A DNA stretch of 25,453 nucleotides from a virus, in the IMG/VR virus record IMGVR_UViG_3300042935_001042, positions 1 to 25,453 of that record. One strand, 5' to 3'. The notes below the pieces were generated by a model that was not told where the DNA came from, ran no database searches, and saw only the letters and a list, made by a program, of their open reading frames with translations. The position numbers were made by a program, and so were the translations under genes. How positions within the stretch are numbered: the stretch's first letter is position 1; each line of letters begins with the position of its first letter. This document shows positions 4,196-18,906 of the stretch, piece after piece.

Positions 4196-4330
4196 ATGGC
4201 AAAACAAACCAACACAGCAGAAAAGATTTTAAAACCTACGATCAGTCGTCCTGGTGTACACGCAAAAGCAAAGACATCAAAGTTGAAATCTAGCAAACTA
4301 TACAAGAAATTAAATAAAGGACAGGGATAA
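4196..4330 (+). CDS. Small basic phage protein, 44 aa
   Basis: An ATG at 4196, five bases after the spanin stop, opens a 44-codon frame rich in Lys and Ser (KPTISRPGVHAKAKTSKLKS, ending NKGQG). The SRPGVHAK...SSK.YKK pattern resembles a very short protein I associate with other Bacteroidota phages, but I cannot name a family. The stop overlaps the next start as TAATG, which argues that both are translated. It is strongly basic; a virion or nucleic-acid-binding role is possible but unproven. Confidence 0.6.
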   Translation: MAKQTNTAEKILKPTISRPGVHAKAKTSKLKSSKLYKKLNKGQG

Positions 4331-4476
4331 TGGATTGGCAATTAGAAATATCATTTCATTGGCCACACGATAGACTAGCAATAGGATGGGAAGTCCTACA
4401 CCCTGATGAGAAATTTGATTATACATCATATGTTCTCTTTCTTGGTTTCATAACAATAACATTAGATATAAATTAA
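4330..4476 (+). CDS. Small protein with C-terminal hydrophobic segment, 48 aa
   Basis: A frame of 48 codons whose ATG overlaps the previous stop (TAATG). The first part is aromatic and charged (MDWQLEISFHWPHDR, LAIGWEVLHPDEKFDY). It is followed by a hydrophobic stretch (YVLFLGFITITLDI), so the product is probably membrane-associated. The 'ISFHWPH.R.AIGW' opening looks like a conserved phage small protein. Function unknown. Confidence 0.55.
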   Translation: MDWQLEISFHWPHDRLAIGWEVLHPDEKFDYTSYVLFLGFITITLDIN

Positions 4477-4484
4477 TATCTTTG
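4477..4484 (+). promoter_or_regulatory. Candidate -7 box before the adhesin block
   Basis: TATCTTTG matches TAnnTTTG and begins directly after the stop codon of the 48-aa gene, 23 bp before the GIY-YIG gene start. No matching -33 element is visible at normal spacing. If real, it would drive the endonuclease and the large adhesin gene behind it. Confidence 0.3.
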
Positions 4485-4506
4485 ATAACTAATAAATTAT
4501 AAAGAA

Positions 4507-5115
4507 ATGGGAATACCAAATAGACAAATAGGAATTTATAAAATTACTAGCCCTAGTGGTAAAGTCTACATTGGTCAAAGTTGGGACATTAAAAAAAGAT
4601 TTTCTAAATATAGAAGTTTACAAAGTGTTTATAAACAAAGAGTTTTATTTAATTCATTTAAGAAACATACGTGGCAAAACCATAAATTTGAAATAATTAA
4701 AGAATGTCAGTCTGATAATGTTACACAATTTGATTTGGATGAATTAGAAATTTACTATATTAATTTTTATAAGGATCTTGGATGCAATCTTTTAAACATA
4801 AAAGAAGGTGGTCGAGGTGGAAAATTACCTAAAGAATCTATTGATAAAATGTTACAAACTAGAGGAAAATGGAATCATTCTATAGAGAGTAAAAAGAAGA
4901 TAAGCGATTCTCATAAAGGAATAAAACATTCTCTATCTACAAGAATGAAAATGAAGAATATGAAAAATAGTATGAAAATTATTTTACATAAAGAAACAGG
5001 AACATTTTACTTTGGAATAAAAGAAGCTGCTTTGATTTTTAACTTAAATTATAATACCTTGTGTAAAATTTTACAAGGCAAAATTAAAAACAATACTAAT
5101 TTAATATACATATAA
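4507..5115 (+). CDS. GIY-YIG homing endonuclease
   Basis: A 202-residue free-standing homing endonuclease. GIY (9-11) and YIG (21-23) bracket the catalytic core, with Arg31 in SWDIKKRF. The DELEIYYINFY helix carries the conserved acidic residue, and LLNIKEGGRGG closes the domain. C-terminal to it are repeated NUMOD3-like segments (ESIDKMLQ, SKKKISDSHKGIKHS) and a NUMOD1-like helix-turn-helix (KEAALIFNLNYNTLCKI) for DNA recognition. Such enzymes cut one strand or both in alleles lacking the gene and spread by gene conversion. The first nine residues, MGIPNRQIG, nearly copy the first nine of the next gene product (MGIPSRQIG), which GIY-YIG proteins do not normally carry. Confidence 0.9.
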   Translation: MGIPNRQIGIYKITSPSGKVYIGQSWDIKKRFSKYRSLQSVYKQRVLFNSFKKHTWQNHKFEIIKECQSDNVTQFDLDELEIYYINFYKDLGCNLLNIKEGGRGGKLPKESIDKMLQTRGKWNHSIESKKKISDSHKGIKHSLSTRMKMKNMKNSMKIILHKETGTFYFGIKEAALIFNLNYNTLCKILQGKIKNNTNLIYI

Positions 5116-5117
5116 AT

Positions 5118-8100
5118 ATGGGTATTCCATCAAGACAGATAGGTTGGGACCAACAGTCAAACTTATTATGGCAACTTCAAGCACAGCTTAATAAATTAGG
5201 CAAAACAATGAGTCAATGTTGTGGATCTTCTACAGCAAATTGTATCAGTTTCACTGATATAACTTGGGAAGCATTCATTGCTGCTGTTGATGCAGGAACT
5301 ATTGCTGATTGTTACTATAACATTATTGACAGACCAAACTCAGGTGATGATCCTTTATACGTTCTTGTTGAAAAGGGACTTCCTAATTTTGACAATGAGG
5401 TGAGAAGAGAAGAACAAGCATCAAGTGCTTTGTGTATTACAAGTGATCAAGGAGTGGGATGTTTCAATGTATATGCTGAATCAGAAACTATTTCTTTTGA
5501 TTATATTGAAGGTGCTACAGTCTATCCTGTTCGATTAAGAGACTGTTCTATTTTTGCTGAAGGAGATGTGGTAACATTTACAAGTTATGAAGCTCCTTTT
5601 CCTACATATACAGGAGTTATACATTATGGTTATAATGGTGGGATGGATCAATGTCAAGTATTCTTTCAAATAACAGGAGGAACAGGTGTTATACCACCAA
5701 GTCCTGGTAATCCTGAAGGAACATTTAGTAATGGTGTAGATAGTACAGATGGAAGAATTGATACAGATGGAAAATGTATTCCTTTTCCAACACTATCTGT
5801 AGGAGATGTAATTAATGGATGGTTATCTCCAGAAGAAGGCGTTGCAAGTGCAACAATAACTTCTATAACAGGAACAACAGTTACAATAGCTCCTACATCA
5901 GGAGATTGGACTGGTGTTTCTGTATTTTTTATAGAGAATAATAAATCTTGTTTATTTGTAACAACAGCTCCTATTACAACAGTTAGTATACTCCTTACAC
6001 CAGATCCTATATGTTTTGATTTTGATAGTCTTCTTGGATTTGGTGTATATTTAAATACATTAATGCAAGCTACAGATGGTTTGATTTATGGAACGTTACA
6101 ATCACACAAGGAGTATGATGGGCAATTGTTTTCTATGGACCCTGTTACAGAGCAAGTGACGATATTGTTTACTTTTGATGATACTGCTACGTATGGTAGT
6201 AATCCTAGTTCAGGACTTGTTGAAATAGCAGGAGAATTATATGGTACATGTAATGCTGGTGGTAATGATGGTGTTGGAACTATATGGAAATGGAATATAG
6301 CAACAAATACATTCACTGTATTACATTCTATAGATAATGATAATGATGAAGGAGCATATCCTTATGGAACATTATTATATACAGGAGGACTTTTATATGG
6401 AACTTGTAATGGTGGTGGAGCTAATGATTTTGGAACATTATTTGAATTTGATCCAATAGCTGTAACATATACAGTGTTATTGCAAATGGGTGATAATGAA
6501 GATATTCAATATCCACAAGGACCATTAGTAGAAGTTATTCCTGGAGAATTGTGGGGAACTTCTACTAATGGTGGAACTAATGATAGTGGTACAGTGTTCA
6601 AATATATACTTAGTTCAGGAATTGATGAGATAGTTGTAAACCTTGACGATGTTTCTGTATCAGGAGAATACATAGGTGCTAGTGGAGGAGTGATGTTAGC
6701 CAGTGATGGTAATGTGTATTTTAATACAATTAATGGTGGTGATGATAAAAATGGAACATTGTGTCAAATTACAGATATTTCTACTATCCCAGTATTAAGT
6801 ATTGTTCATAGCTTTGATATTAATTATGGATATGGAAAAGCTGTATGCCCTATAGAAATTGCTGGTAATTTGTATGGATGTACAAATAATTCAAATGAGG
6901 AGCCTACAGGTTGTACTTCTCCAGTTGGAAGTATTTACAAATATGATCTTAGTGTAGGTATATTTACAACATTGCACGCATTTGATGCTCCAACTGATGG
7001 GGGTTCTCCTACTTTAGGACAACTTCTTCCTATTGTAGATGTATTGTATGGAATGACAAATCTACCAAAACTACCAGACTGTCCTACAGATCAATATGGA
7101 CAAATATTCAAATACAACATCACAACAGATGTATATACAAATGTTCAAGCTTTAGGAGTTCCTGTTTCTTCTCCTGCTGAGGTGGCAACATCTATTTGTG
7201 AAAGTATTGTAGATCCTGGATATACATGTACTACAGTGGGTGGATGTCTTTTTGTTTCAGGAACACAGTTTGGAAACGAAGCAGGTCAAACATTAGTGAT
7301 TAGAACTATTGTTACGTTTGAAGGTAATTTAAATGCATGTACACCACCTGTTCCTGGAGATATTATATATGATGATGCTACAGGCAATTTAATAGGAACT
7401 GTTCTTAGCTTTAGTGGGGTTAATCCATATATAATGGAAGTGGAATTAGATGACAATGCTAATCCTGGATATGATCCTAATAGTGCTGGTTTTAATATTT
7501 ATGTACAAGGGGATGGATGTGGTATTAAAGTTGAGCAAATAATAGGAACAATCATTGACTACACTGTTCAACCTTTTTCAGGAGGAAAAGAACCTGTTAA
7601 CAGACCTTGTTATTACAATGCTACATATGATGTAATCACAGACTATCCTCTTTCACAACCACACACAAAAGCAGAAATAGACTATCTTGTAACTAACAAC
7701 TTGTTAGTGCCAGGTGCATTCTATCACATCATGGATGTGGATTTATTCTTATATGGAGGAACAGAGATTGTTATACAAGCAAACAGTCATCATTCATTTA
7801 ATGATACAGCAATGGGCTTGTTCTACAATCCTAGATATGATCAAGATGTATTAGGATATGGAATATATGATGCTTCTACAAGTTATTCACGAGGAGACAC
7901 TGCTATATGGGGAGGACTTGTTATAACATTGGTTGGTGGTTCTGGTATGGGAAATACATCTGCATACAATTTAGAATATAACATATGGACATTCCCTGGT
8001 AAATTCAAAGTGTTTGTAAGTGATACATCATCTTTTGCTGGAGGAGATATTGTTTATGATCCTAATAATTCAAATAATTCAATGCTTATTACAGAAGTGG

Positions 8101-8972
8101 GAGCTGATTACATTATTGTATCATGCCCTCCTTTGTTCTTAGCATTTGCTCTACAACTTGATAATGGCACTGGTGCAGTTGATATCACATCTATAGAACT
8201 ACACGAATCATTCTACAGCGATTTTATTTACAATGCTGTATGGGATGAAATCACATATGATTATGCACATGATTTCATTAGTTCTAGAAAAGACAATGTT
8301 GGAAATGCTGTAGAGCAATCTTGGAGCAGTTATGAACTTTATTATAATAATCCTATATACAGAGCTATTGCAGGATTCCAATGGGGTAATGAATATGCAA
8401 ATAATATACCTGTTGAGGATTATGTTGGAATGTTTGCAAATAAAATAACTGATAGTTATGTAGAAGTTATTAATTTTAGAGGAAGATATTTTATTCAAAA
8501 TGTATTTGATAGTTCTTTGTTTGTTGCTAATAATCTTAATGGACGTATAATTTTTCAAAGCAATGTTTTTATAAACAATTGTGAGATGAGAAATTGTAAC
8601 TTTGTAGAAGCAACTAACTGTAGTTTTACTAATAATTATTTTAATAGTTCACTTTTACATACTTCAGAATTTGATGGTGGATCTTTTTATAACAATACAT
8701 TAAACAACAGTATAGTTAATCAAGCAATTTTTAACTCTATTGATTTTATTAATAATGCTTTGAAAAGTTCAGAATTAGATCTATCAACACAAGTGGGAAG
8801 TATAGAACGTGTAAACTTTGATTATGTCACCTTAAATGATGACATATCTTTAGCTACAAGAATATATGAAAATACTTATAGCAAAGATGTTGTACAAGGT
8901 AGAGGTTTAGACAACTATATTAAATATGTAAGTAATACAGGTACATACGCAGTTGTTCTTGTAACAACATAA
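5118..8972 (+). CDS. Large modular virion adhesin: docking module, 7-blade propeller, beta-helix
   Basis: A 1284-residue protein without signal peptide, enzyme motif or TM helix. Residues 1-36 are a short docking module (SRQIGW..Q.N...NK...CC) shared with the gene at 8990. Residues of about 310-675 hold seven repeats of the 'LYGT..GG....G.(I/L)F..D....(Y/F)T.LH.F' type (TIGR03803/GloVer-like), enough for one seven-bladed beta-propeller. A carbohydrate-binding-like stretch (SYSRGDTAIWGGLVI) lies near 920-938. Residues of about 1125-1237 are Asn/Ser-rich short repeats (NNCEMRNCNF, TNCSFTNNYF) typical of a right-handed beta-helix. This is best read as a tail-fiber or baseplate adhesin that binds host surface glycans. 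It starts 2 bp after the GIY-YIG stop. Confidence 0.75.
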   Translation: MGIPSRQIGWDQQSNLLWQLQAQLNKLGKTMSQCCGSSTANCISFTDITWEAFIAAVDAGTIADCYYNIIDRPNSGDDPLYVLVEKGLPNFDNEVRREEQASSALCITSDQGVGCFNVYAESETISFDYIEGATVYPVRLRDCSIFAEGDVVTFTSYEAPFPTYTGVIHYGYNGGMDQCQVFFQITGGTGVIPPSPGNPEGTFSNGVDSTDGRIDTDGKCIPFPTLSVGDVINGWLSPEEGVASATITSITGTTVTIAPTSGDWTGVSVFFIENNKSCLFVTTAPITTVSILLTPDPICFDFDSLLGFGVYLNTLMQATDGLIYGTLQSHKEYDGQLFSMDPVTEQVTILFTFDDTATYGSNPSSGLVEIAGELYGTCNAGGNDGVGTIWKWNIATNTFTVLHSIDNDNDEGAYPYGTLLYTGGLLYGTCNGGGANDFGTLFEFDPIAVTYTVLLQMGDNEDIQYPQGPLVEVIPGELWGTSTNGGTNDSGTVFKYILSSGIDEIVVNLDDVSVSGEYIGASGGVMLASDGNVYFNTINGGDDKNGTLCQITDISTIPVLSIVHSFDINYGYGKAVCPIEIAGNLYGCTNNSNEEPTGCTSPVGSIYKYDLSVGIFTTLHAFDAPTDGGSPTLGQLLPIVDVLYGMTNLPKLPDCPTDQYGQIFKYNITTDVYTNVQALGVPVSSPAEVATSICESIVDPGYTCTTVGGCLFVSGTQFGNEAGQTLVIRTIVTFEGNLNACTPPVPGDIIYDDATGNLIGTVLSFSGVNPYIMEVELDDNANPGYDPNSAGFNIYVQGDGCGIKVEQIIGTIIDYTVQPFSGGKEPVNRPCYYNATYDVITDYPLSQPHTKAEIDYLVTNNLLVPGAFYHIMDVDLFLYGGTEIVIQANSHHSFNDTAMGLFYNPRYDQDVLGYGIYDASTSYSRGDTAIWGGLVITLVGGSGMGNTSAYNLEYNIWTFPGKFKVFVSDTSSFAGGDIVYDPNNSNNSMLITEVGADYIIVSCPPLFLAFALQLDNGTGAVDITSIELHESFYSDFIYNAVWDEITYDYAHDFISSRKDNVGNAVEQSWSSYELYYNNPIYRAIAGFQWGNEYANNIPVEDYVGMFANKITDSYVEVINFRGRYFIQNVFDSSLFVANNLNGRIIFQSNVFINNCEMRNCNFVEATNCSFTNNYFNSSLLHTSEFDGGSFYNNTLNNSIVNQAIFNSIDFINNALKSSELDLSTQVGSIERVNFDYVTLNDDISLATRIYENTYSKDVVQGRGLDNYIKYVSNTGTYAVVLVTT

Positions 8973-8989
8973 TATTAAAAAATCGAATT

Positions 8990-9178
8990 ATGATAAGTCG
9001 TGAAATAGGTTGGAGTAACCAAAACAATCTTACGTTTGGTATCATCAAACAAGTAAACAAAATACAGAAAGATGTGTGTTGTAATTGTAATATTACAACC
9101 ACCACTACTAGTAGTACAAGTACAACAACTAGCACTAGTTCTAGTACCACAACAACTACTACAACATCTCCAGCTTAG
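8990..9178 (+). CDS. Short docking-module protein with Thr/Ser tail
   Basis: A 62-residue protein in two halves. Residues 1-33 align with the start of the large adhesin (SREIGW, N..NL, VNKIQKD, CC); residues 36-62 are almost only Thr and Ser, ending TTTTTTTSPA. The Thr codons are a mixture of ACA, ACT and ACC, so the tract appears kept for its amino acids and not as a simple DNA repeat. It may be a virion protein displaying a flexible, possibly glycosylated mucin-like tail; a glycosyltransferase gene follows at 9865. Stop codon TAG. Confidence 0.65.
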   Translation: MISREIGWSNQNNLTFGIIKQVNKIQKDVCCNCNITTTTTSSTSTTTSTSSSTTTTTTTSPA

Positions 9179-9197
9179 ATTATTGTTTCTAAAGCTG
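9171..9197. terminator. Imperfect hairpin across the stop codon of the Thr-tail gene
   Basis: CAGCTTAGA (9171-9179) can pair with TCTAAAGCTG (9188-9197), with one bulged A and an 8-nt loop. It spans the TAG stop at 9176-9178. No T-run follows. It could be a weak terminator or mark the left edge of the endonuclease insertion. The remaining bases to 9268 are AT-rich and hold no recognisable gene. Confidence 0.25.
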
Positions 9198-9268
9198 TAA
9201 TATGATTATAGTATAACACCAAAACATAATAAACACACAACAATAAATTATAATAAACCAACTACATT

Positions 9269-9877
9269 ATGAAAGATTTGAAATTTATCTGTGAAAAATG
9301 GCGAGATATAAAACAATTCGAAGGATATGAAGTTAGTAATTTAGGTATAGTTAGAGGAAAAGATAGACTTGTAAAAAGAAAAACTGGATCTTGTTTCATT
9401 AAAGGAAGAGAGTTAAAACAAATATTTAATAAAAAAGGATATCCTGAAGTTAGATTTCGTAAAAAAGGTTCTCATACTAGATTAGTTCATAGATTAGTTG
9501 CTGATGCATTTATATTAAATTGTAATAATAAATTACAAGTTAATCATATTGATGGTAACAAGCTAAATAATAAAGTAGATAATCTTGAATGGGTTAGCAA
9601 TTCAGAAAATCAATTACATGCTTATAGATTAGGATTGCAACCTAGTAGAGCTGGTGAAAAAAATAATAAAGCTAAAATTACAGATTCACAAGTTACACAA
9701 ATTAAACTTTCTTATAACCTAGGAAAAAGTATCTTTGAAGTTTCAAAAGAAACAGGGATATCTTTAGGAATTATTAGAGATATAATTTATCTGAGAACTT
9801 GGAAGTCAAATAAAACCTCTATTTTAAAGAGGGATGATAGAAGTAAAACCAAAAAACCAATATTATGCGAGAATTAA
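9269..9877 (+). CDS. NUMOD4-HNH homing endonuclease
   Basis: A 202-residue free-standing homing endonuclease. Residues of about 10-35 form a NUMOD4 DNA-binding motif (KWRDIKQFEGYEVSNLGIV). The HNH nuclease follows: HRLVADAF (74-81), then QVNHIDGNKLNNKVDNLEWV (90-109) with the His/Asn residues of an HNH_3 site. The C-terminal part has a helix-turn-helix-like segment (ITDSQVTQIKLSYNLG...VSKETGIS). The start MKDLKFIC resembles the start of the next gene product (MRELKFLSC). The last codons overlap that gene by 13 bp, so the ORF runs into the start of the neighbour. Confidence 0.9.
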   Translation: MKDLKFICEKWRDIKQFEGYEVSNLGIVRGKDRLVKRKTGSCFIKGRELKQIFNKKGYPEVRFRKKGSHTRLVHRLVADAFILNCNNKLQVNHIDGNKLNNKVDNLEWVSNSENQLHAYRLGLQPSRAGEKNNKAKITDSQVTQIKLSYNLGKSIFEVSKETGISLGIIRDIIYLRTWKSNKTSILKRDDRSKTKKPILCEN

Positions 9878-10881
9878 AATTTTTATCCTGTCAGCCAGAT
9901 GACACTTATTACACATGGCAAGTACACCTTTGGTTAGAAAGCTTAAGAGAAATAGGACATTCAGATAAAGCCATCGTGCTTATTTTTATTCCTAGTTACA
10001 GAGAACAAAATAAGAAGTGGGACCAAATTATAAGTCTATATCCAGAAGCTGAATTCAACTTCTATAAAGATGTAGACAACGTAAGTCAATTATTAGGAAT
10101 ATACATTCCTGTTCTTCGTCCTTACGTTCTTTGGAAATACTTTAAAGAGCATCCTGAAATGAGCGATAAAGCAGTATTTTATTGTGATTCTGATATTCTC
10201 TTTACACAGGAATTTAGTCTTGATAAGTTCTTAGAAGATGATGTATGTTATCTTTCAGATACAAACAGTTACATTAGTGCTAAGTATTTTGACAGTAAGA
10301 TTAATCAGGTGTTACCTGAGAAACTAGAAGAATACAAAACAAGAGATATTCTTGGTGAGATGGCAAGTGTTATTGGTATATCAAGAGAAATTGCAGAAGC
10401 AAACAATGATCATTCAGGAGGAGCACAATACTTCTTGAAAAACGTAGATGGAGACTTCTGGAGTAAAGTGATGAATGATTGTATTCTTATAAGAACCTAT
10501 TTACAAAAAGTGAATAGAGAATTCTTTAAAGATGAGAATGCAGGGTATCAAAGTTGGTGCGCAGACATGTGGGCTGTTCTTTGGAACCTGTGGTTTAGAG
10601 AACAAGAAACTAAAGTGGTTCCAGAACTAGCATTTGCTTGGGCATCTGATCCACTTATAAAATTAGAATCACATTCGATTCTACATAATGCAGGAATAAC
10701 AGGAACAGTGATGGGAGACCATCCATGTTTCTATAAAGGGAAATATCATACAGGACAAGATCCTATGTTAGATCCACATTTAGATGTAGTGTTGAATGAT
10801 GAGAAATCAAAAACAAGATGCACATGGTATTATGCCAGCAAACTAAATTTATTAAAACATAAATATAAACTTAATTACTAA
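9865..10881 (+). CDS. GT-A fold glycosyltransferase
   Basis: A 338-residue protein. The sequence AVFYCDSDILFTQEF carries a DxD motif (Asp108-Ser-Asp110) after a beta-strand, the metal/nucleotide-sugar site of GT-A glycosyltransferases. A later ILHNAGITG segment near residue 270 could hold the conserved His that also binds metal. The protein is soluble, with no TM helix or signal peptide. The overall pattern faintly recalls transferases acting on hydroxyproline or serine of proteins (HPAT/SERGT), but I cannot confirm that. It lies between two genes for virion-type proteins, one with a Thr/Ser tail, so a virion protein could be the acceptor. The HNH endonuclease ORF overlaps its first codons. 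Confidence 0.75.
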   Translation: MRELKFLSCQPDDTYYTWQVHLWLESLREIGHSDKAIVLIFIPSYREQNKKWDQIISLYPEAEFNFYKDVDNVSQLLGIYIPVLRPYVLWKYFKEHPEMSDKAVFYCDSDILFTQEFSLDKFLEDDVCYLSDTNSYISAKYFDSKINQVLPEKLEEYKTRDILGEMASVIGISREIAEANNDHSGGAQYFLKNVDGDFWSKVMNDCILIRTYLQKVNREFFKDENAGYQSWCADMWAVLWNLWFREQETKVVPELAFAWASDPLIKLESHSILHNAGITGTVMGDHPCFYKGKYHTGQDPMLDPHLDVVLNDEKSKTRCTWYYASKLNLLKHKYKLNY

Positions 10882-17533: not shown

Positions 17534-17695
17534 ATGGCCACTGATAAAAAATGGATGCAGAAAGCTGCAGCTTCTATCAAGAAGCGTGGCACTGCTGGTA
17601 AATGTACACCAATCACTAAACCTGGTTGTACTGGTAGAGCTCGCACCCTTGCAAAAACTTTTAAAGCAATAGCTAAGAAAAAGAAAAACAAATAA
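17534..17695 (+). CDS. Small basic protein, 53 aa
   Basis: An ATG at 17534, 2 bp after the previous stop, opens 53 codons: DKKWMQKAAASIKKRGTAG, then KCTPITKPGCTGRARTLAKT and a Lys-only end. The KCTP.TKPGCTGRA..LAKTF stretch looks like a conserved phage motif with two Cys. The stop overlaps the next ATG (TAATG). It is probably a virion-associated basic protein. Confidence 0.65.
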   Translation: MATDKKWMQKAAASIKKRGTAGKCTPITKPGCTGRARTLAKTFKAIAKKKKNK

Positions 17696-18201
17696 TGAAG
17701 AGTTCTAATATTAGAAATGTTAGTAGAAGAGCTAAGCTTAGAGGAATTACAGTATCTGAACTTATTCTTATTGAACAAGAAAAACAGATAAAAATAGATC
17801 AAGGATTTAAATGGTGTAATTCATGTAAAGATTGGTTATTAAATTCAGAGTTTGGAAAAGCTCATTCATATTGTAAACAATGTTATAGAGATAGAAGTAA
17901 CTCTAGATATGATTTAGATAAACAAAGATCCCATTTATTAAAAAAGAAGTATGGAATTACTTCTGATAGATATAATCAAATGTTATCTGAACAAAATCAC
18001 AAATGTTACATTTGTCATATACATGAAGATAAACTAGATCGATCATTAGCTGTTGATCATTGTCATAAAACTGGAGAAGTAAGAGGACTATTATGTGGAA
18101 ACTGTAATAGATTTCTTGGACAAATTGACGATAACATCAATACAGCAGAAAGATTACTAGAATATCTTAATAAATATAAAAACATTCAAGAAGATTGCTA
18201 A
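17695..18201 (+). CDS. Endonuclease VII-type HNH endonuclease
   Basis: A 168-residue protein. A first zinc finger uses CNSC (41-44) and CKQC (60-63). The recombination endonuclease VII core follows: HKCYICHIHED (102-112) with Cys104/Cys107, AVDHCHKTGEVRGLLCGNC (119-137) with Asp121, His122, His124, Cys134 and Cys137, and NRFLGQIDD. Free-standing endoVII-type enzymes are either junction resolvases or homing-type nucleases. Its place between the lysine-rich small genes suggests a mobile one. It is preceded by a TAATG overlap and followed by 18 bp. Its start does not copy that of the next gene. Confidence 0.85.
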   Translation: MKSSNIRNVSRRAKLRGITVSELILIEQEKQIKIDQGFKWCNSCKDWLLNSEFGKAHSYCKQCYRDRSNSRYDLDKQRSHLLKKKYGITSDRYNQMLSEQNHKCYICHIHEDKLDRSLAVDHCHKTGEVRGLLCGNCNRFLGQIDDNINTAERLLEYLNKYKNIQEDC

Positions 18202-18219
18202 ATCTAATAAAAGGAAATA

Positions 18220-18906
18220 ATGTCTAAGATGAATCCTCAGAAAGCTACAGCATATGTAGGCCCTGGTGTACTACGCAAAGGTGGTAAGATTACTCCTGTT
18301 CCTAATGGTCCTCTTGTAAAAAAGAAAGGTCCATTCAAAGGAAGTACATTGAAGACTGGTGGTAGAGTGATTAAAAAAGCTCAGGAAGGAACTACACTAG
18401 ATAAGATAAAGGAACAAACCAGACTTAGACAAAATCTTACAGATTTTAGAAAGAAAGTTGGTAGTACACCACTCACTCCTCAATTACGTAGAGAAAAAGA
18501 TTCTCTTACAGGTTTATTGAAAAACTTTTCTACAAATCAAAGAGTACAAGCTACAGGACTCACTCCTGCACAATTAGCTGCTAATGATGCTCAAGCACAA
18601 AAAGAAGCTGCAAGAAAACCTGATGTAGTAGATGAGAGCTGTCAAAAAAGAGGTCTTCCTACTAGTGGTGGAGGATGTTCTGGATCAGCAAGAAAAAATG
18701 CAAAAAGATTGAAAGACGAAAGAAATAGAAAAAATGGTGGAACTATTGCAAAAGCTAAGTCTGGTGCAATGATTAAACGTGCTGATGGTTCTTATTCTAA
18801 ACGTGGATTGTGGGATAATATAAGAGCTAACAAAGGATCTGGTAAGAAACCTACAAAACAAATGTTAGTTCAAGAGAAAAAGATTAAAGCTAAATCTAAG
18901 AAATAA
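18220..18906 (+). CDS. Lys-rich protein with KxGG/KAQxG motifs
   Basis: A 228-residue, strongly basic protein. Motif copies are KTGGRVIKKAQEG (45-57) and KNGGTIAKAKSG (171-182), with a related RKGGKITPVPNG at 19-30. A stretch with QKRGLPTSGGGCSGSARKNA, near 142-161, holds two Cys. The C-terminal 30 residues are almost all Lys, Gly and Gln. The function is unknown; motif sharing with the genes at 16890 and 19196 suggests one family. The stop overlaps the next start (TAATG). Confidence 0.65.
   Translation: MSKMNPQKATAYVGPGVLRKGGKITPVPNGPLVKKKGPFKGSTLKTGGRVIKKAQEGTTLDKIKEQTRLRQNLTDFRKKVGSTPLTPQLRREKDSLTGLLKNFSTNQRVQATGLTPAQLAANDAQAQKEAARKPDVVDESCQKRGLPTSGGGCSGSARKNAKRLKDERNRKNGGTIAKAKSGAMIKRADGSYSKRGLWDNIRANKGSGKKPTKQMLVQEKKIKAKSKK

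Follow-up and report, generated by a model that had tools for sequence, protein, structure and literature searches.

A putative GIY-YIG homing endonuclease that appears to have taken over the start of a phage tail gene

Introduction

Most descriptions of free-standing homing genes place them between genes, as passengers. The locus described here raises the question of why such a nuclease should begin like the gene that follows it. In the window, i.e., the whole stretch of 25,453 nucleotides that was analyzed (IMG/VR virus record IMGVR_UViG_3300042935_001042), a GIY-YIG homing-type endonuclease gene (4507–5115, plus strand) ends 2 bases before a large tail/fibre-like gene (5118–8972, plus strand), and the first residues of the two open reading frames, MGIPNRQIGIYK and MGIPSRQIGWDQ, are nearly the same. 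The initial annotation regarded the first seven nuclease residues as borrowed and proposed an insertion just inside the downstream gene, by which the original start was passed on to the nuclease and a second start came to serve the tail gene.

Results

The near-identity of both starts was confirmed at the DNA level, with 20 of 27 positions being the same between the nuclease start (4507–4533) and the recoded restart of the tail gene (5118–5144, plus strand). The codon changes (nuclease/tail gene) are also those listed in the initial annotation, namely four silent ones (GGA/GGT, ATA/ATT, CAA/CAG, and GGA/GGT) and AAT/TCA, which replaces N by S. The nuclease belongs to the homing endonucleases of PHROG 314 (E = 3e-30, PHROGs) and has a PF01541 domain (28.8 bits at a cut-off of 22.6, Pfam) that begins only at residue 8; a NUMOD3 match was weak and stayed under its cut-off (13.7 versus 20.4 bits, Pfam). 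The tail gene has an N-terminal RQIGW module and gave neither a Pfam match above cut-off nor a PHROGs match at E ≤ 0.01; its earlier name, adhesin, is a label of the initial annotation. The RQIGW module recurs at the starts of many tail genes.

Residues 1 to 7 are indeed extra to the nuclease. In an alignment of the window protein with those of L222, L168, and FL-1, conservation sets in at residues 8–9, and residues 1–7 are present only in the window and L222. The FL-1 nuclease starts with MIGIYKITSPSGK; like those of L168, L167, and L173, it has none of the extra residues and starts at the GIY strand. Relatives with an MGIPxRQ start and no adjoining gene of this kind had been named as evidence that would speak against borrowing. 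The single diverged relative with such a start, L222, which a pattern scan found in a 114-kb record, is 54% identical to the window nuclease, starts with MGIPNRQIGIYK, and directly precedes a small gene, MIPSRQIGWSQEANL, which lies 2 bases past the nuclease stop codon and starts MIPSRQIGW. Moreover, the first 27 bases of the L222 nuclease equal the native start of one L219 gene. Since the L222 nuclease resides at a different gene, the element tracks the RQIGW module and not one orthologous gene.

For a wider comparison, fifty records out of approximately 94 were surveyed for three nuclease families, with longer records favored and known HNH carriers included. The matches comprised 40 GIY-YIG, 21 HNH_3, and 16 endonuclease VII genes, and in this set of 77 the three nucleases of the window replace their G002 copies. 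The N-terminal score of the window nuclease and its tail gene was 43, which not one of 5636 cross-record pairings attained. However, similar N-termini of neighboring genes are common in these phages because tandem tail genes have modules in common, e.g., MAIPSRQIGW, and the N-terminal match is weaker evidence than its appearance suggests. With ordinary genes from the same loci as a control, a score of at least 35 was found for 47 of 537 ordinary gene pairs, as compared with 4 of the 77 nucleases (Fisher p = 0.38, a rough value given that the genes are related to each other), and 39 of the 537 ordinary pairs scored at least 40. N-terminal similarity alone was therefore rejected as proof, as it does not set the nucleases apart, and the case rests on alleles without the nuclease.

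When residues 1–334 of the tail gene product served as a query, eight loci were returned, four of which represent the window's own allele (100%). In three of the four others (L009, L010, and L011), which are all closely related in this region, the nuclease is absent at the tail-gene start; in L012, the match begins only at residue 19 and the context is different. The site is thus polymorphic for presence and absence of the GIY-YIG gene. In each of the three empty alleles, the 60-base stretch ahead of the tail gene is fully identical to the one ahead of the window nuclease (60/60), and this leader joins the large tail gene directly. The first 27 tail-gene bases agree with the window nuclease start at 25 (L009), 23 (L010), and 26 positions (L011), compared with 22, 24, and 21 positions for the window restart. 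In L011, the agreement is an uninterrupted run of 26 bases, which corresponds to window positions 4507–4532 (plus strand) and marks this segment as the native tail-gene start, now the start of the nuclease. The 73 bases after the start are identical to the window tail gene in all three alleles (73/73). L009, L010, and L011 have one RQIG-type start each at this site, the window has two, and over 2500 upstream bases none of the three showed a second one. The uninterrupted gene that the initial annotation had predicted for nuclease-free relatives hence exists, and all three empty alleles agree with its proposal of an insertion just inside the tail gene. The simplest reading is that the native start was taken by the nuclease and that a reworded second copy acts as the restart of the gene.

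Some codon differences call for a more careful reading. The TCA codon of the restart also occurs in the empty allele L010 (L010 6001–6027), and therefore this difference is not cassette-specific. Natural variation may account for the L010 allele, as may an earlier loss of the nuclease through recombination of the two copies. The GGT codon of the restart was absent from the other MGIP genes found. As a side observation on the tail gene, its first 100 bases or so (window 5118–5220) are nearly the same in the window and the three empty alleles and its distal part is diverged between phages; L009 and L011 depart from the window sequence past approximately base 100.

A comparable arrangement was found further downstream in the window, where a NUMOD4-HNH_3 homing-type endonuclease gene (9269–9877, plus strand; assigned by Pfam and PHROGs) precedes gene 9865 (9865–10881, plus strand; PHROG 4417, function unknown). 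Both HNH_3 (40.3 bits) and NUMOD4 (43.7 bits) are above their Pfam cut-offs, and the HNH family is not related to GIY-YIG. A glycosyltransferase label for gene 9865 was dropped for want of support. The N-termini read MKDLKFIC for the nuclease and MRELKFLS for gene 9865. Among the best 80 of 271 loci, the usual start of the 9865 homologue is MKDLKF or MKELKF behind the leader AAACCAACTACAT. Removing 7 HNH carriers and 12 others (near-duplicates, loci with a short upstream stretch, or those with a match only from residue 2) left 61 empty loci. Over 39 bases, the 5' end of the window HNH gene has a single mismatch to the empty start of L017, and the restart has 11 to its nearest. For the 13 HNH-bearing loci, the nuclease 5' ends showed 0–6 mismatches to the nearest of the 61 empty starts and the restarts 10–22, the larger of the latter values being inflated because MSK, MRK, and MGK starts carry a 3-base insertion and the comparison was ungapped. 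No second start of the 9865 type and no close HNH relative was found in any of the 61 empty loci within 1500 upstream bases or the available length (shortest stretch 1304 bases); L061 has a distant relative (35%). From these comparisons, HNH 9269 is a second start capture in the window, with the native start of gene 9865 now opening the nuclease (9269–9293, plus strand) and gene 9865 restarted by a recoded leader and first codons (9851–9889, plus strand), which overlap the nuclease 3' end. Start capture thereby recurs in two nuclease families.

The HNH query returned 44 loci, of which nine close ones with a visible downstream gene and 11 more distant ones were examined; L103 and L104 (both cut off) as well as L095 are close loci outside this count. 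The 9865 homologue comes next in all nine close loci (L094, L096–L102, and L133), whereas MKDLKF is the start of none of the 11 distant nucleases, nine of which begin with ATG. One of the 13 HNH-bearing loci, L067 (4177–4995), has a broken nuclease and a retained recoded restart, likely a decay stage of the cassette. In a separate observation, the HNH genes of L156 (G046), L184 (G047), L208 (G049), and L212 (G050) take their last residues, KPTT, from the following gene's recoded leader, AAACCAACAACT, so that coding sequence and leader overlap there.

The history of HNH 9269 is discordant with that of its neighboring gene. In L096 and L101, the 9865 homologues are 98% identical and the nuclease bodies only about 62–63%, and the respective values for L098 and L102 are 89% versus 68%. 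Conversely, L034 and L064 share 100% identical nuclease bodies at 91% identity of the gene, and the nucleases of L096, L098, and L099 are 89–94% alike at 75–79% for the gene. At the right-hand side, L034 and L064 are 100% identical up to restart base 30 and mostly 82–95% beyond, whereas L096 and L101 show the converse, with 60% for bases 15–30 and 96–100% beyond. These changes in identity place the right cassette border near codon 10 of the restarted gene. Mantel tests did not separate the parts of the cassette; both the restart (rho 0.72) and the borrowed 5' end (0.62) correlate with the nuclease body, as well as with each other (0.79), and the tests gave no sign that the restart accompanies the nuclease body more than the 5' end does.

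A mirror image of this arrangement was observed at a 3' end. A small gene (17534–17695, plus strand) carries a recoded copy of its end (17654–17695, KTFKAIAKKKKNK). An endonuclease VII-type nuclease (17695–18201, plus strand; Pfam) follows, and behind it the displaced native end of gene 17534 was located at 18179–18220 (plus strand; KTFKKIAKSNKRK), which resembles the native end in relatives such as L040 (KTFKKIAKSNKKK). The last nuclease residues, KNIQEDC, are an out-of-frame reading of this displaced end. In L032, a reworded copy KTFKAIAKKKKKK like that of the window is present, and the displaced copy behind the nuclease equals the native end KTFKKIAAKRKGK of L143. Taken together, the 3' ends of L032 and the window point to one side being recipient-specific and the other cassette-specific.

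A cultured 3' case was found in Flavobacterium phage elemoA_7-9A (L233, 1274–2700), where an HNH gene is accompanied by a duplicated phosphoesterase 3' end. It was the only duplication among 11 nucleases of named phages, which were chosen from the best matches; this count includes BcoS-136 and MaeS, for which no neighboring end was compared, and Slash, for which the comparison was confined to the upstream end. All 68 records matching the elemoA_7-9A region are on Flavobacterium sp. BAL314, and a near-identity search found the HNH gene only in both records of this isolate. Compared with one sibling, elemoA_13-1A, which has no HNH gene, elemoA_7-9A shows 724 identical bases, then a diverged phosphoesterase C-terminus, and then the HNH gene, behind which AAATTAAGTAGTAACGGAAATATATTTGAAATATGA, equal to the sibling's native gene end, leads into the common flank with ten differences.

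By inspection, start capture was assigned to 10 of the 77 surveyed nuclease genes (two GIY and eight HNH, the latter of one cassette family) and end capture to nine (two GIY, one HNH, and six endonuclease VII), and 58 lacked a clear duplication. In the start case G015:86477, the native start forms a short orphan frame and the nuclease has its own start. Two GIY genes, G004:2074 and G005:72152 (MSLGQIYEG / MKINQVIEG), were left out of the capture counts. In L159 and L160, GIY nucleases starting MSLGQIYEG or MSLSQIYEG precede a gene starting MKINQVIEG or MKINQIIEG, a possible further start capture. A 3' score of at least 37 was obtained for 9 of 77 nucleases versus 13 of 537 ordinary genes (Fisher p = 6e-4), or for 8 of 76 (p = 0.002) if G015:86477, a 5' case by inspection, is omitted, and both p values are rough since the genes are related to each other.

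Alternative explanations

Related phages often have tandem genes with an RQIGW module (e.g., L020, L036, and L053), and the nuclease might have landed in a separate gene of this type, the remains of which now form the nuclease start, with the large gene keeping a start of its own. This we regard as improbable, as the same leader enters the same tail gene directly in three of three empty alleles, which have no other RQIG-type start over the 2500 bases upstream, and as gene 9865 repeats the pattern with not one second start within up to 1500 upstream bases of its 61 empty loci. Far less credit still is due to a self-splicing intron whose nuclease frame continues that of the first exon and whose splicing restores the tail-gene message. 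Intron-borne nucleases are frequently in frame with the upstream exon; however, Rfam gave no match in the window at the gathering score and none of relevance at E ≤ 1 in 4300–10100, the nuclease fills the insert up to 2 bases before the restart, and an intron would make a second start needless. A group I intron was rejected specifically, as no catalytic intron RNA was found by Rfam. We find it just as hard to believe that the shared start is a translational or regulatory element that evolved twice with no duplication at all. Leaders such as AAACCAACTACAT are conserved upstream of gene 9865, but the DNA identity of the window to the empty allele spans the leader plus 26 coding bases, and the residues in question are missing from most nuclease relatives.

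An insertion into the tail gene may also be correct and the reworded copy differ only through drift or its origin in a diverged donor, without helping the cassette to escape cutting. We rate this as rather unlikely, yet as much the most serious of the alternatives. The restarts vary freely between cassettes, and for two of the fungal cases discussed below, the authors preferred to explain the inserted C-terminus by horizontal transfer (PMC3630166). Against it stands the consideration that, should the nuclease recognize a sequence across the junction, an exact copy next to the right half-site would restore its target. With regard to the silent differences, for which the initial annotation had offered both protection of the site and acquisition from a diverged relative, the two origins fit equally well, and both can hold.

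Discussion

We are confident, if short of certain, that a homing endonuclease cassette consisting of the nuclease body and reworded first codons was inserted at approximately codon 9 of the tail gene. In this event, the host leader, the start codon, and the first eight or nine codons would have remained left of the insert and been turned into the nuclease 5' end, and the reworded copy with its new start codon would have given the host gene an intact N-terminus again. The sequence comparisons establish the insertion point within a coding end, tell native from added parts, locate the borrowed end and its reworded replacement, and reveal an exchange of nucleases at one site. As for the driving process, we infer that the nuclease would cut the uninterrupted gene start or end in a co-infecting phage genome and that repair from the nuclease-bearing genome would copy the cassette in. 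By logic, the reworded copy may be retained because it avoids the cut site that an identical copy would bring back.

The nucleases described here lie at coding ends, where the start or stop region of the host gene is taken over and the gene is restored by a recoded copy. Such an arrangement would explain the expression, the tolerance, and a possible self-immunity of a homing gene without an intron. Gene finders assign the borrowed codons to the nuclease, and the event is missed. As elemoA_7-9A and a sibling lacking the nuclease share Flavobacterium sp. BAL314 as host, homing and recoding are open to a bench test. We lean, by a modest degree, towards a general class of phage homing elements that insert at coding ends and carry a recoded copy of the displaced end, in a 5' start-capturing and a 3' stop-capturing form, which would have emerged in three or more nuclease families (GIY-YIG, HNH, and endonuclease VII type). 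Such a class would be nature's parallel to engineered homing with a recoded rescue, and the recoded copy would act as self-immunity.

Start capture by phage nucleases was not recognized in any report in a literature search by title and abstract opening, with subscription journals mostly outside its range, nor in the excerpted text of PMC10448857 and PMC12724721. The 3' form is already known from fungal mitochondria, where mORFs with duplicated gene C-termini are described for Allomyces atp6, Rhizopus atp9, Mortierella cox2, and Glomus atp6/atp9/cox2/nad3 (PMC3630166). Like the phage 3' type, these combine an endonuclease gene in a coding sequence with a diverged end copy that replaces the displaced native end, and the inserted and native atp6 ends share 63.5% identity in DNA and 91% in protein (PMC3630166). 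They are mitochondrial, whereas the present elements reside in phage, and they replace the C-terminus, whereas the phage GIY and HNH cases capture the N-terminus and start codon with the nuclease fused to them (PMC3630166). In the window, the GIY-YIG and HNH elements are thus of the 5' kind, and the 3' kind is represented by the endonuclease VII element alone.

The free-standing T4 nucleases (seg, mob) resemble those of the window in being GIY-YIG and HNH enzymes outside introns that move between related phages (PMC2988022). They are intergenic with cut sites at distances of hundreds or thousands of bases, or gene-splitting (mobE, mobA, and seg43), and the string "duplicat" is absent from the main text of the T4 homing endonuclease review (PMC2988022; term search). 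The insertions presented here differ from the intergenic type with a distant cut site, as they fall within about codons 8–10 of the host gene. In Phialocephala mitochondria, the first 14 bases of ORF_01 are common with a duplicated atp9; however, this case involves duplication of a whole region with a 488-base insert, and ORF_01 is not named an endonuclease in the text concerned (PMC3434094). Finally, engineered home-and-rescue drives home into an essential gene and encode its rescue, and as these drives are engineered and Cas9-based, the likeness is one of logic only (PMC7968924).
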